Origin: Acidimicrobiia bacterium
GTDB lineage: Bacteria > Actinomycetota > Acidimicrobiia > Spongiisociales > ZC4RG35
Reading direction: 5' to 3'
DNA length: 32,862 bases
Assembly: GCA_015488325.1 (NCBI GenBank)
Contig: WFOA01000127.1
Location: forward strand, 1-32,862
Shown: piece by piece, positions 20,712 to 24,696 of the stretch
Position numbering within the stretch: position 1 is the first letter of the stretch
How the letters are laid out: every line of letters begins with the position of its first letter
Translations under genes and position numbers: made by a program
The notes under the pieces: model-generated
Told to the model about the DNA's origin: nothing
The model's input: only the letters and a program-made list of their open reading frames with translations
Database searches by the model: none

Positions 20712-21512
20712 ATGTACGACGTAGCGGCCCGAAAGATCCAGCTGTGGAACGCGGCGATGTCCGCCGACCCGGACCTGTACGAGGTCGCCGCCCGGGTCTC
20801 CACCATCCCCGACACCGCGACCGCCGTGCTGCGGTTCGCCAACTCCGCCTACATCGGCGCCGTCTACCCGGTCGGCACCGTGCTGGAGGCGGTCATCCGG
20901 GTGGGTTCACGGTCGGTGGGTGCCCTGGCCATGGCGTCGCTCAACCGTGACCTGGTCGACACCTGGGGCGCTCCGGAGCTGTGGGAGGCCTCGCTGGTGG
21001 TGGGTCGGGCCGCCAAGCTGATCGGACGGCTGCTGGGGTTCGGCCGTTCGGAGAACGAGCACCTGTTCGTTGCGGGGCTGTTCTCCTGCGCCGGATCGGC
21101 GGGCCTGCTCATGAAGGACGAAGGCTATCTCGACTGGCGTCGCCGGCAGTGGATGAAGGGCGCCTCCGACGCCCAGATGCTCGAGCGTGAGCGGATGGTC
21201 TACGGATCCAACCACGTCGAGATGGCTACCGGGCTGCTTCGGGAATGGAACCTGCCCGACGCCATCGTGCGGGCGGTCGCCGCCCACCATTCACCCCACG
21301 AAGACACCGAGAAGGCGTTGTGGGCGGCCATGATGGTGCTGCCGGTCGATTCCCCGAGCCGATGCCTCGACCTCCCCTTCAAGAACGCCATGCGGGCGTT
21401 GGGTCTGGAAGAGCATCGCGAGTTCGTCGAGACGGAGGCGAGGCTCTTCGCCGACGTCACGGTGGACGCCTTCACGGCGGAGCCTGCGCTGCGGGCGGTC
21501 GGGGAGGCGTGA
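20712..21512 (+). CDS. HDOD-domain signalling protein
   Basis: 266 residues matching the HDOD output/signalling domain. It starts with a helical region containing VAARVSTIPDTATAVLRFAN and SAYIG, then TVLEAVIRVGSRSVGALAMAS, WEASLVVGRAAKLIGRLLG, the HLFVAGLFSCAGSAGLLM block, and AIVRAVAAHHSPHE near 200. HDOD domains are degenerate HD phosphohydrolase folds without activity. Consistently, the position where HD enzymes carry the His-Asp pair reads FSCAG. Such proteins take part in signal transduction and motility in many bacteria, but the ligand is unknown. It lies 57 bases after fliA on the same strand and ends at a hairpin, so it closes this transcription unit. Confidence 0.8.
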   Translation: MYDVAARKIQLWNAAMSADPDLYEVAARVSTIPDTATAVLRFANSAYIGAVYPVGTVLEAVIRVGSRSVGALAMASLNRDLVDTWGAPELWEASLVVGRAAKLIGRLLGFGRSENEHLFVAGLFSCAGSAGLLMKDEGYLDWRRRQWMKGASDAQMLERERMVYGSNHVEMATGLLREWNLPDAIVRAVAAHHSPHEDTEKALWAAMMVLPVDSPSRCLDLPFKNAMRALGLEEHREFVETEARLFADVTVDAFTAEPALRAVGEA

Positions 21513-21555: not shown

Positions 21556-21783
21556 TCAGGCGTCGCCGTCGGATTCGTCGGCGTCGGCGGGCACCAGAAC
21601 CGGGGTGGGGAAGAACGATCTGATGGTCCGGCGCAGGATCACCACGCCGAGGAACAGCCATCCCGCCCGGGAGGCGGCGTCGAGGGCGGTGATCTCGGAC
21701 GTTGCGAGCTTGTAGGCGATCGGGGCCAGCGCGATCAGGCCGATGACCGCCACGATGCGGGCGAGGACCGGTCCGGCGTTCAT
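21556..21783 (-). CDS. Small two-helix membrane protein, last gene of the flagellar operon
   Basis: 75 residues with two hydrophobic helices (about 6-25, VLARIVAVIGLIALAPIAYK; about 39-52, ASRAGWLFLGVVILRR) and a short acidic tail (DADESDGDA). The start overlaps the stop of the FlhF-like gene by four bases (ATGA), so it is part of the motA-flhA transcript. I recognise no family. Position suggests an accessory role at the flagellar base or membrane, without direct evidence. Confidence 0.6.
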   Translation of the reverse strand: MNAGPVLARIVAVIGLIALAPIAYKLATSEITALDAASRAGWLFLGVVILRRTIRSFFPTPVLVPADADESDGDA

Positions 21784-22658
21784 GGCCGCTCCAGCAACTC
21801 ACGGACCGCCCACGCCGCGTCCAGCGCCGTGACCCGGTGGGCCGGCGCACCGAAGCGCGAGCTCATGCCGTACGCGAGGGTGGCACCTGTCAGGTGGGCG
21901 ACCCGGATCGCCCCGACCGCACCCCGCTCCGACACCCACGAGACGAGGGTGGGTGTCTCGGTCAGGGCGGTGGGGGCGCCTTCGTCTCCGACCACCAGGT
22001 GGACCCAGTCTCCCGACGGCCCGGCGCCGAGGGCGGCGGCGAGCCGGTCGGCCCGCGGTCCGGTCATCCGTCCCCGGCCGGGTGGGATCGGTCCGCACAG
22101 GGGTGCCAAGGCCCGGGCGAGGGCGGAGAGGTGGGCGAGGTCGTCGGCCGGGTCCAGGCCCGCGAGCGCTTCGAGGTAGGAGGGGGGGAGGCCCACTTCC
22201 AGCAGTCGGCCCACATCCCAGTGGACACCGGGGACGGCCTCGGATGGCACCGACGGTCCGGCGGCGGTGCGGGGTGGGGTCTCGACGGCCACGCCGGCCC
22301 TGGCGCCCGCAGCCGGAGCCGCTGCGGGTTCGGCTCCCGAGACCAGGGTGCGCCCCAGGACTTCGGCGAAGCTCGCCTGCTCGGCGGCGGCGAGCATCCG
22401 CTCCAGGGTGTGGTCGACGCCTCCAGACGGTGAGACGACGTCGTCGTCCCCGTCGCCGGGGGTGGCTTCGGTGTCCGGTCCGGCCGGGTCGCGGTCCGCT
22501 ACCGCCACCACCTCGACGACCTCCCGGGCGAAGAATCCGGCGATTCCGCCCCGACGGACCCGGTCGGCGCGGACGATCCGCGCCGCCGGACCCAGGCGGG
22601 CGGCGACCTCGGCGAGGGCGTCTTCGACGGTGTCGGCTTCGATGGTGATCTCAGACAT
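21780..22658 (-). CDS. FlhF-like protein lacking a visible SRP-type GTPase P-loop
   Basis: 292 residues directly after flhA, where flhF normally lies. The N-terminus, EDALAEVAARLGPAARIVRA then DRVRRGGIAGFFAREVVEVV, follows the FlhF B-domain pattern. It is followed by an Ala/Pro/Gly-rich linker (about 60-150) and a helical part (LEVGLPPSYLEALAGLDPAD). In true FlhF the G domain begins with a Gly-rich GKT P-loop; none is found here. The last 90 residues (WVHLVVGDEGAPTALTETPT, AYGMSSRFGAPAHRVTALDA) may be a decayed remnant of that domain. GTP-driven placement of flagella is therefore not expected. Start ATG 22658 overlaps the flhA stop by eight bases. Confidence 0.6.
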   Translation of the reverse strand: MSEITIEADTVEDALAEVAARLGPAARIVRADRVRRGGIAGFFAREVVEVVAVADRDPAGPDTEATPGDGDDDVVSPSGGVDHTLERMLAAAEQASFAEVLGRTLVSGAEPAAAPAAGARAGVAVETPPRTAAGPSVPSEAVPGVHWDVGRLLEVGLPPSYLEALAGLDPADDLAHLSALARALAPLCGPIPPGRGRMTGPRADRLAAALGAGPSGDWVHLVVGDEGAPTALTETPTLVSWVSERGAVGAIRVAHLTGATLAYGMSSRFGAPAHRVTALDAAWAVRELLERP

Positions 22659-24696
22659 TGGCGGGTTCTCCTTGCTCGATCACTCCGAGGGGGGTGAGCT
22701 CCACGTGGCTCGGCAGCTCCGGGTAGGCGACGACGGGAATGTCGACTCCCAGGGAGGTGAGGGTTCGGTGCAGGGGCTTGCGGAGGGCCTGACTGCAGAC
22801 GATGGCGACGGGTCGCCCGGCGGCGGCGGTCAGGGCCCGGGTGGCGTCGTCTCGGAGCCGCTCCATCTGTTGAGGGTCGAGGACGAGGTGGGTCTGGCCG
22901 TCCACTTCCCGCAACGCCTCGTGGAAGGCGGCTTCGAGGGCCGGTTCCAGGGTAACCACCGCCAGTTTCCCCTCCGGTGCCAGTTTGGCGACGATGGTGG
23001 ATCCCAAAGCCACCCGGGCGGCTCTGACGAGCTGCTCCACCGATTTGGTCTCCACGGCTTTGGCGGAGACGGCCTCGACGATCCTGCCGATGTCCCGGAT
23101 CGACACCCCGTCTTCGAGCAACCCCCGCAGCACGGCGTGGAGTGTGGACAGGGGCAGCGTCTCGGTGCCGACTTCGCCGGCCAGGATCGGTTCGTCGTAG
23201 CGGAGCCCTTCGACGAGGAGCTGGGTGTCCTGGCGGGTGAGGAGGTCGGCGGCGTGGGATCGGACCACCTCGGCGAGGTGCGTGATCACGGCCGACGACC
23301 GGTCGACGACCGTCGCGCCGGTCGCCGCCGCCGCCGTCTTCGCCGATTCGGGAACCCAGTAGGCCTCCAGGCCGAACACCGGCTCGACCACCTTCTGTCC
23401 ACCCATGGCCTCCAGTTCTGCTCCGTCGCCGACGGGCAGGGCGAGGACGTGGTCCCGGGGGGCGATCCCCCGGCCGACCTCGGTGCCCCGCAGCAGGATC
23501 CGGTAGGTCGCTTCGGGGAGCGCCGCGTCGTCGCGTGCTCGGAGGAGGGGGATGACGATGCCGAGCTCTTCGGCGATCTGACGGCGGAGCGCGCGGACCC
23601 GTTCCATGAGGTCACCACCACGGGCCGGGTCGATGAGGTCGAGGATGTCGTGGGCCAGGTACAGCTCGATCGGCTCGACCCGCATCTGGCCGATGAGCGC
23701 CTCCGGGTCGTCGGGGTTGGCTCGGATCTCCGGGATGGTCTCGGTTTCGTCTTCGGCCTCCCGGTCGGTCCCGCCGCCACGAGACCCGAGGAGCGCCAGG
23801 ATGGCGGCGAGGGCGAAAAATGGCAGTTTGGGCAGCCCCGGCAGCAGCCCCATCCCGCCGATGACGACCGCCCCGATCCGCAGGGCGTGGGTGTTGCCGA
23901 AGACCTGGGAGGTGAGCTCGGAGCCCATCGAGCCTTCAGACCCGACCCGGGTGATGAGCAGACCGGTGGCGATGGAGATCAACAGGGCGGGGATCTGGGA
24001 GACGAGACCGTCACCGACCGAGAGCCGACTGTAGGTGTCGATCGCCTCCCCGACGTCGAGTCCCTTCGTCCCGATACCGATGGCGAGACCCCCGACGAGG
24101 TTGATCCCGGTGATGATGATGCCGGCGATGGCGTCGCCTTTGACGAACTTGGAGGCACCGTCCATCGCCCCGTAGAAGTCGGCTTCCTTCGAGATGCGCT
24201 TGCGGAGGTCGCGGGCCTGCTCTTCGTTGATGAGTCCGGCCCCGAGGTCGGCGTCGATCGCCATCTGCTTTCCGGGCATGGCGTCGAGGGTGAACCGGGC
24301 GGCGACTTCGGCGACCCGGCCCGCCCCGTTGGTGATGACGACGAACTGGATGACGACCAGGATCAGGAACACCACCAGGCCGACGACCACCGAGCCGCCG
24401 ATGACGAACCCGCCGAAGGTGTCGATGACCTTCCCGGCGTAGCCTTCGAGGAGGATCAGGCGGGTGGAGGAGACGTTGAGGGCGAGCCGGGTGAGGGTGG
24501 CGACGAGCAGCAGCGACGGGAAGACGGAGAACTCCAGCGAGTCCTTCAGCACCATCGCCCCCAGCAGGGCCAGCACCGAGAAGGTGATGTTGGCGGCGAG
24601 GAGGATGTCGAGCAGCATCGGCGACATCGGCACCACCATCATCAACACCACGCTCACCAGCGCGAGGGGAGCGAGGACCTGGGCCTTCGATCTCAT
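22651..24696 (-). CDS. flhA: Flagellar export gate protein FlhA
   Basis: Central component of the type III export gate; couples export to the proton gradient and docks chaperone-substrate complexes. The 681-residue product has an N-terminal membrane half with about eight helices (VLAPLALVSVVLMMVVPMSP, LDILLAANITFSVLALLGAM). It contains the FHIPEP-family signature EFSVFPSLLLVATLTRLALN at 55-74 and the FMDGASKFVKGDAIAGI-type loop (reads YGAMDGASKFVKGDAIAG). The cytoplasmic C-terminal domain starts around 320. Length and order are normal. ATG 24696 is chosen as the start of the first membrane helix; it overlaps the flhB end by four bases. Confidence 0.96.
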   Translation of the reverse strand: MRSKAQVLAPLALVSVVLMMVVPMSPMLLDILLAANITFSVLALLGAMVLKDSLEFSVFPSLLLVATLTRLALNVSSTRLILLEGYAGKVIDTFGGFVIGGSVVVGLVVFLILVVIQFVVITNGAGRVAEVAARFTLDAMPGKQMAIDADLGAGLINEEQARDLRKRISKEADFYGAMDGASKFVKGDAIAGIIITGINLVGGLAIGIGTKGLDVGEAIDTYSRLSVGDGLVSQIPALLISIATGLLITRVGSEGSMGSELTSQVFGNTHALRIGAVVIGGMGLLPGLPKLPFFALAAILALLGSRGGGTDREAEDETETIPEIRANPDDPEALIGQMRVEPIELYLAHDILDLIDPARGGDLMERVRALRRQIAEELGIVIPLLRARDDAALPEATYRILLRGTEVGRGIAPRDHVLALPVGDGAELEAMGGQKVVEPVFGLEAYWVPESAKTAAAATGATVVDRSSAVITHLAEVVRSHAADLLTRQDTQLLVEGLRYDEPILAGEVGTETLPLSTLHAVLRGLLEDGVSIRDIGRIVEAVSAKAVETKSVEQLVRAARVALGSTIVAKLAPEGKLAVVTLEPALEAAFHEALREVDGQTHLVLDPQQMERLRDDATRALTAAAGRPVAIVCSQALRKPLHRTLTSLGVDIPVVAYPELPSHVELTPLGVIEQGEPANV

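Follow-up and report, generated by a model that had tools for sequence, protein, structure and literature searches.

In most flagellated bacteria, FlhF is a GTP-driven switch for flagellar placement and FlhG is its activator. A review describes FlhF as a GTP switch that is released by FlhG, and FipA as a membrane protein that interacts with FlhF in gamma-proteobacteria (PMC12826062). FlhF of Shewanella binds FliG through its first 60 residues, which are both required and enough for this interaction, and contacts the landmark HubP through its NG domain (PMC11236974). The gene table of an mBio article from 2023 lists FlhF as absent from later classes (PMC10746217). No description of a P-loop-less FlhF was found in the open-licence literature in PMC.

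The window analysed here is a stretch of 32,862 nucleotides from an Acidimicrobiia bacterium (NCBI GenBank assembly GCA_015488325.1, contig WFOA01000127.1), and it carries a gene that we call flhF'. Like the described FlhF proteins (S. putrefaciens, structure 8r9r, with its FliG-interacting domain (FID) in 9en1; and 2px0), flhF' has the slot after flhA, the FID fold, a linker and an NG-like C-terminus. Unlike them, it is without P-loop, G2, G3 and G4, its NG domain is about half the size, and its genome is without FlhG. Diverged FlhF proteins of other Actinomycetota (our families f69, f103, f70, f76, f89, f92 and f100) share the absence of FlhG and the slot after flhA, but all of these keep GxxxxGK[ST], and f69 and f103 also keep DT[AP]G and TK[LT]D. 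What is new here is an FlhF by descent that is without the FlhF GTPase.

The gene after flhA and its N-terminal domain

The flhF' gene (21780..22658, minus strand) encodes 292 aa from an ATG start. It lies immediately after flhA in a flagellar cluster, which is the gene slot of FlhF. Its start shares 8 bases with the end of flhA (22651..24696, minus strand; FHIPEP, E 2.8e-233), which is directly upstream and whose own start was taken as the ATG that overlaps the stop codon of flhB. Both flhB and fliR precede flhA on the same strand, and other flagellar genes in the window encode FlgK, FlgL, FliW, a FliA-type sigma factor, MotA, MotB and FlgE. A gene for an HDOD-domain protein (20712-21512, plus strand) is convergent with the flhF' operon and adjoins the FliA-type sigma factor gene.

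The preliminary description had placed an FlhF-position protein without a P-loop at 21780-22658, and this is borne out by the slot, by the motifs and by the N-terminus. GxxxxGK[ST] and the FlhF-kind DxxG and TKxD are all absent from the 292 residues, and a Pfam search of the protein returned no SRP54 domain at E ≤ 10. Residues 5-68 match the NCBIfam FlhF family TIGR03499 (E 9.9e-8), with a score of 32.3 bits that is far under the equivalog cut-off of 174 bits.

An AlphaFold2 model built from 28 alignment rows has two confident blocks, the N-terminal domain and residues 145-291. Between them runs a mostly low-confidence linker (residues 57-144, 22227..22490, minus strand; pLDDT 48-79 in most blocks) with predicted helices at 81-94 and 97-106. 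Residues 1-56 (22491..22658, minus strand) are predicted to form a beta-alpha-beta-beta fold that holds a GGIAGFF segment, and the model of these residues superposes on the crystallised FID of Shewanella FlhF (9en1) with a Z of 7.4 and an rmsd of 1.1 Å over 46 residues (VIA-align). A profile search of the PDB with the FID gave a weak match (E 0.02 at best). An FID profile built from intact FlhF misses 6 of 42 ORFs from the class Acidimicrobiia at E 0.01, and its two 'decoy' matches are themselves cut FlhF' ORFs (L139, L140). As judged from family profile and predicted structure, an FlhF-type N-terminal FliG-interacting domain is present in flhF'. Its prospective partner FliG scores above the family cut-off in 42 of the 47 FlhA-bearing genomes in our class sample of 296, and these 47 are the base for all class counts below. 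In the flhF' genome itself, FliG is encoded by a 325-aa frame on contig C109.

The C-terminal pseudo-NG domain

Residues 145-291 (21786..22226, minus strand) are predicted to form a half-size pseudo-NG domain. The best 40 fold matches of this part of the model are all SRP GTPases (VIA-align), with FtsY at the top (Z 9.3 over 142 residues) and FlhF 8r9r at Z 8.0; a Z near 9 is little above the scores reached by common fold arrangements. The aligned length is 142-143 residues, compared with 255-300 in the matched NG chains, and a Foldseek search was weak, with a best SRP row at E 0.033. The C-terminal domain of other class families is longer and plainly NG-like. With the model of one such form (L244), the top match is FlhF 8r9r (214 residues aligned, Z 17.1), Ffh and FtsY score within 1 Z of it, and Foldseek gives E 3.0e-7.

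These longer relatives also connect the window form to intact FlhF at the level of profiles. The class form scores 56.5 against intact FlhF in local comparison (shuffled maximum 19.6), and the window form scores 37.9 against the class form (shuffled maximum 14.4), with none of 40 shuffles as high in either case. A direct profile match between the window form and the NG domain of intact FlhF is absent (14.2, reached by 6 of 40 shuffles). The class NG-like set comprises 36 sequences chosen by their C-terminal motif, and leaves out the motif-less families (f9, f51, most of f16, f49 and Ilumatobacteraceae); the window-type profile has 17 rows, one of which (L262) is a cut or frame-broken NG-like form. 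The global mode of hhalign was set aside, as its shuffles were erratic, with single values above 120, and 5 of 40 reached the real window-versus-class value. When the class form (A4) was compared with the PDB as a sequence profile, no GTPase was among the matches.

Because fold and intermediate relatives link it to the SRP GTPases, we read the C-terminus of the window form as a reduced NG domain, in which the model indicates that the SRP-type NG fold is kept. The preliminary description had held the G domain to be unrecognisable. That is correct for direct sequence comparison, but a reduced domain emerges from fold and intermediate relatives, and the structural comparison with FlhF NG domains that it had proposed does match 8r9r, at about half the domain size. 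A borrowed FID fused to a new protein, whose C-terminal domain is unrelated to SRP GTPases, would account for the missing direct match to intact FlhF and for those class families whose C-termini show no NG-like motif. This origin is unlikely, since the window form is profile-linked to a class form that is clearly NG-like, only SRP GTPases lead the fold matches, and the gene slot is unchanged.

Two other kinds of ORF occupy the slot elsewhere. The Ilumatobacteraceae-like loci L247, L251, L265 and L267, which form one clade on the FlhA tree, keep the FID segment and continue into a different short C-terminal stretch in which no NG-like domain is visible. In L148 (G267), the ORF after flhA encodes 818 aa; its long middle part is charged and resembles a coiled coil, and its short C-terminus is similar to the window form.

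Distribution, order of loss and selection

FlhF scores above the family cut-off in 0 of 296 class genomes, while the window-family profile matches 41. An uncut ORF follows flhA in 42 of the 47 FlhA-bearing genomes; of the five others, three are cut by contig ends (G101, G182, G311), one has no sequence past flhA on its contig (G246) and one has a flhA fragment only (G073). A first tblastn scan in which the window protein was the sole query gave no relative. An alignment query of a named collection gave 61 loci, nine of them cut by contig ends; they belong to Acidimicrobiia, to Nitriliruptoria and, with Pilimelia and Zafaria, to Actinomycetia. Pilimelia terevasa JCM 3091 and Zafaria cholistanensis (L264, L258) have the longer form. 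Relatives of flhF' extend to other families and orders. The preliminary description had suggested surveying relatives for GTPase motifs, and the P-loop is missing from the NG position in all 42 complete class ORFs and from all 52 uncut ORFs of the named loci, two sets that have genomes in common. The single GK[ST]-like string among the class ORFs (G310) is located in the linker. That description had treated the trait as one of a single lineage, which proved too narrow: it spans a clade with the class Acidimicrobiia, Nitriliruptoria and some Actinomycetia. The gene table of PMC10746217 is corrected accordingly for those classes, in which a diverged FlhF, as identified by sequence and model, is hidden in the expected place.

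Outside the class, 58 FlhA-bearing genomes were sampled and sorted by hand. Intact FlhF was found in 14, a divergent form with a P-loop in 15 and a complete form without a P-loop in 14; three more ORFs are cut with no P-loop seen, two are cut before the domain, eight genomes are without an FlhF-like ORF in the slot, and two (G570, G628) are unsorted. Among the 15 divergent P-loop bearers, four (f69, f103) also keep DT[AP]G and TK[LT]D; in the other 11, D[TS][AP]G occurs in none and [TSN]KxD in six. Family f70 (L313, L314, L316, L317, L319, L346) has a good P-loop, but DTAG is replaced by DTPP and TKLD mostly by [SC]KxD; to judge from these motifs, its FlhF may bind GTP without normal hydrolysis. 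Seven FlhA-bearing loci, L308, L315, L318, L323, L324 (f59), L325 (G394) and L337 (G603), have neither an FlhF-like ORF after flhA nor FlhG. These represent complete loss of FlhF and FlhG, and the f59 cases lie outside the P-loop-less clade.

In the intact group, an FlhG with a DQAxxLR helix is encoded immediately 3' of flhF. Profile searches detected FlhG in 13 of the 14 intact-FlhF genomes; in the remaining one (G642) the N-terminal part is present before a contig edge ends the gene. FlhG was detected in 0 of 47 class genomes and 0 of 44 other FlhA-bearing genomes (0 of 91 combined); the search of the 44 held no positive, and the same profile detected FlhG in the intact set. No full-length FlhG with a DQAxxLR helix was found in the flhF' genome, where the best match (54.5 bits) is a frame that appears Mrp-like by eye.

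An FlhA tree was inferred by a quick method from 85 of 118 rows, after 33 had been dropped as near-copies, cut loci or rows without an assigned state. All 62 P-loop-less rows fall on one side of one branch (SH-aLRT 100), and rows with a P-loop but without FlhG sit between the intact and the P-loop-less rows. This branch order indicates that FlhG was lost first, and the P-loop later and once. The short form of the window lies within a 21-row subclade (support 100) of Acidimicrobiia and Nitriliruptoria, a mixture that agrees with the inter-class exchange reported in PMC10746217. The stages form a series in which first FlhG was lost, then G3 and G4 were weakened, then the P-loop disappeared and finally the domain was halved.

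Stepwise loss of motifs and length, together with slots that hold no FlhF at all in some Actinomycetia-like and f59 genomes, would also suit a remnant without current function, retained by its position between flhA and a membrane protein gene. We consider such a remnant quite improbable, given that the frames are open in 42 of 42 complete class ORFs and that five pairs of relatives give dN/dS values of 0.10-0.16 for the FID and 0.04-0.23 for the last 150 residues; the linker gives 0.17-0.50 (NG86, with dS near or above 1 in some pairs). The gene is maintained by purifying selection and is not in free decay. A compact, remodelled pseudo-NG domain under such selection points to a probable separate function for the C-terminal half.

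The retained fold could in principle still serve a GTPase with an unconventional nucleotide site. The former P-loop site (residues 200-206, 22041..22061, minus strand) follows the first predicted strand (196-199) of the G-like part and is without GKT. Its G200 is nearly or fully invariant among window-family relatives, and the segment would correspond residue by residue to the old P-loop. In 97% of the 36 class-form rows the first glycine of the loop behind strand 1 is still there, but the loop has lost GK[ST] and one residue; DTYR, DTAG and TKLD are gone, and the G1-G4 motifs are absent. With the loop shortened, these motifs lost and FlhG lost as well, continued GTPase activity is very improbable. 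A G domain concealed by a sequencing or assembly error, which an assembly in 162 contigs might suggest, can be dismissed, because the same P-loop-less architecture is open-framed across many independent assemblies, including that of a same-genus genome whose copy is 74% identical. In addition, the genome itself, which is 98.45% complete, yields only two SRP54 G domains when searched in all six frames: Ffh scores 578.4 bits (cut-off 473.2) and FtsY 312.6 bits (cut-off 260.7).

The downstream membrane protein and a proposed role

The next gene downstream (21556..21783, minus strand) overlaps the flhF' stop by ATGA; it encodes a membrane protein of 75 aa that has two hydrophobic segments. Searches of Pfam and NCBIfam with this protein found no family at E ≤ 1. 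Its profile matches at the equivalent position in all 28 window-type named loci (L209-L234, L238, L252) and in 0 of 33 others, in which a diverged small membrane protein is often found there. Small ORFs that have one or two hydrophobic segments occupy that place in all 28 window-type named loci, in 18 of the 24 remaining P-loop-less named loci whose sequence extends far enough, in 23 of 28 other class loci and in 9 of 14 loci with a P-loop but no FlhG, against a background of 123 of 1220 random stop codons. In the FlhG-bearing loci with intact FlhF, a similar small membrane protein lies slightly further downstream (11 of 12, with two cut by the end of the stretch). Its profile scores 30.4 against the class form (shuffled maximum 13.2) and only 16.6 against the window form (shuffled maximum 13.6), scores that run across transmembrane segments and call for caution. 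The idea that the 75-aa protein is a new replacement for FlhG was dropped, as FlhG-bearing genomes have a similar protein downstream. The small membrane protein is probably an old member of the cluster that has adjoined flhF' since the loss of flhG, so that its closeness alone is new. It is perhaps a candidate partner of FlhF', and a possible analogue of FipA, which is likewise a membrane protein and works with FlhF.

Sequence comparison and structural models together show FlhF' as a descendant of FlhF that has lost the GTPase. The reading that we favour, and consider reasonably probable, is that FlhF' carries a pseudo-GTPase and acts as a GTP-independent FliG-docking adaptor, with the pseudo-NG domain as a second binding surface. 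FliG binding and a role in flagellar placement are what the retained FID would predict. On a young basal body, the FID of FlhF' would dock on FliG, and the pseudo-NG domain would offer a fixed second surface towards the membrane, a landmark or perhaps the 75-aa membrane protein. In guiding FliG/FliF assembly, FlhF' would then need neither a GTP-loaded dimer nor release triggered by FlhG. The joint absence of the GTPase and FlhG, with the FID kept, fits a scaffold role in a lineage unable to run the FlhF-FlhG switch. The preliminary description had gone further and allowed the protein a scaffold function only; the scaffold part agrees with these losses, but 'only' sits poorly with a C-terminal pseudo-NG domain under purifying selection. 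Its further idea, that this lineage may place or number its flagella in a different way, is a conjecture at the level of phenotype. More tentatively, and with considerable doubt, a large part of the flagellated Actinomycetota, made up of Acidimicrobiia, Nitriliruptoria and some Actinomycetia, may run a nucleotide-free FlhF as a permanent FliG adaptor, anchored by the small membrane protein, so that basal bodies would be captured and released without a GTP or ATP switch.

The P-loop-less FlhF group is large among Actinobacteria, and in it the motor-docking piece survives the loss of both GTP binding and FlhG. A clade that has the FliG-docking part and the fold, without the GTP motifs and FlhG, separates the scaffold role of FlhF from its role as a switch. 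The group is thus a natural test of what the GTP switch of FlhF is for, and it offers graded stages of its loss.
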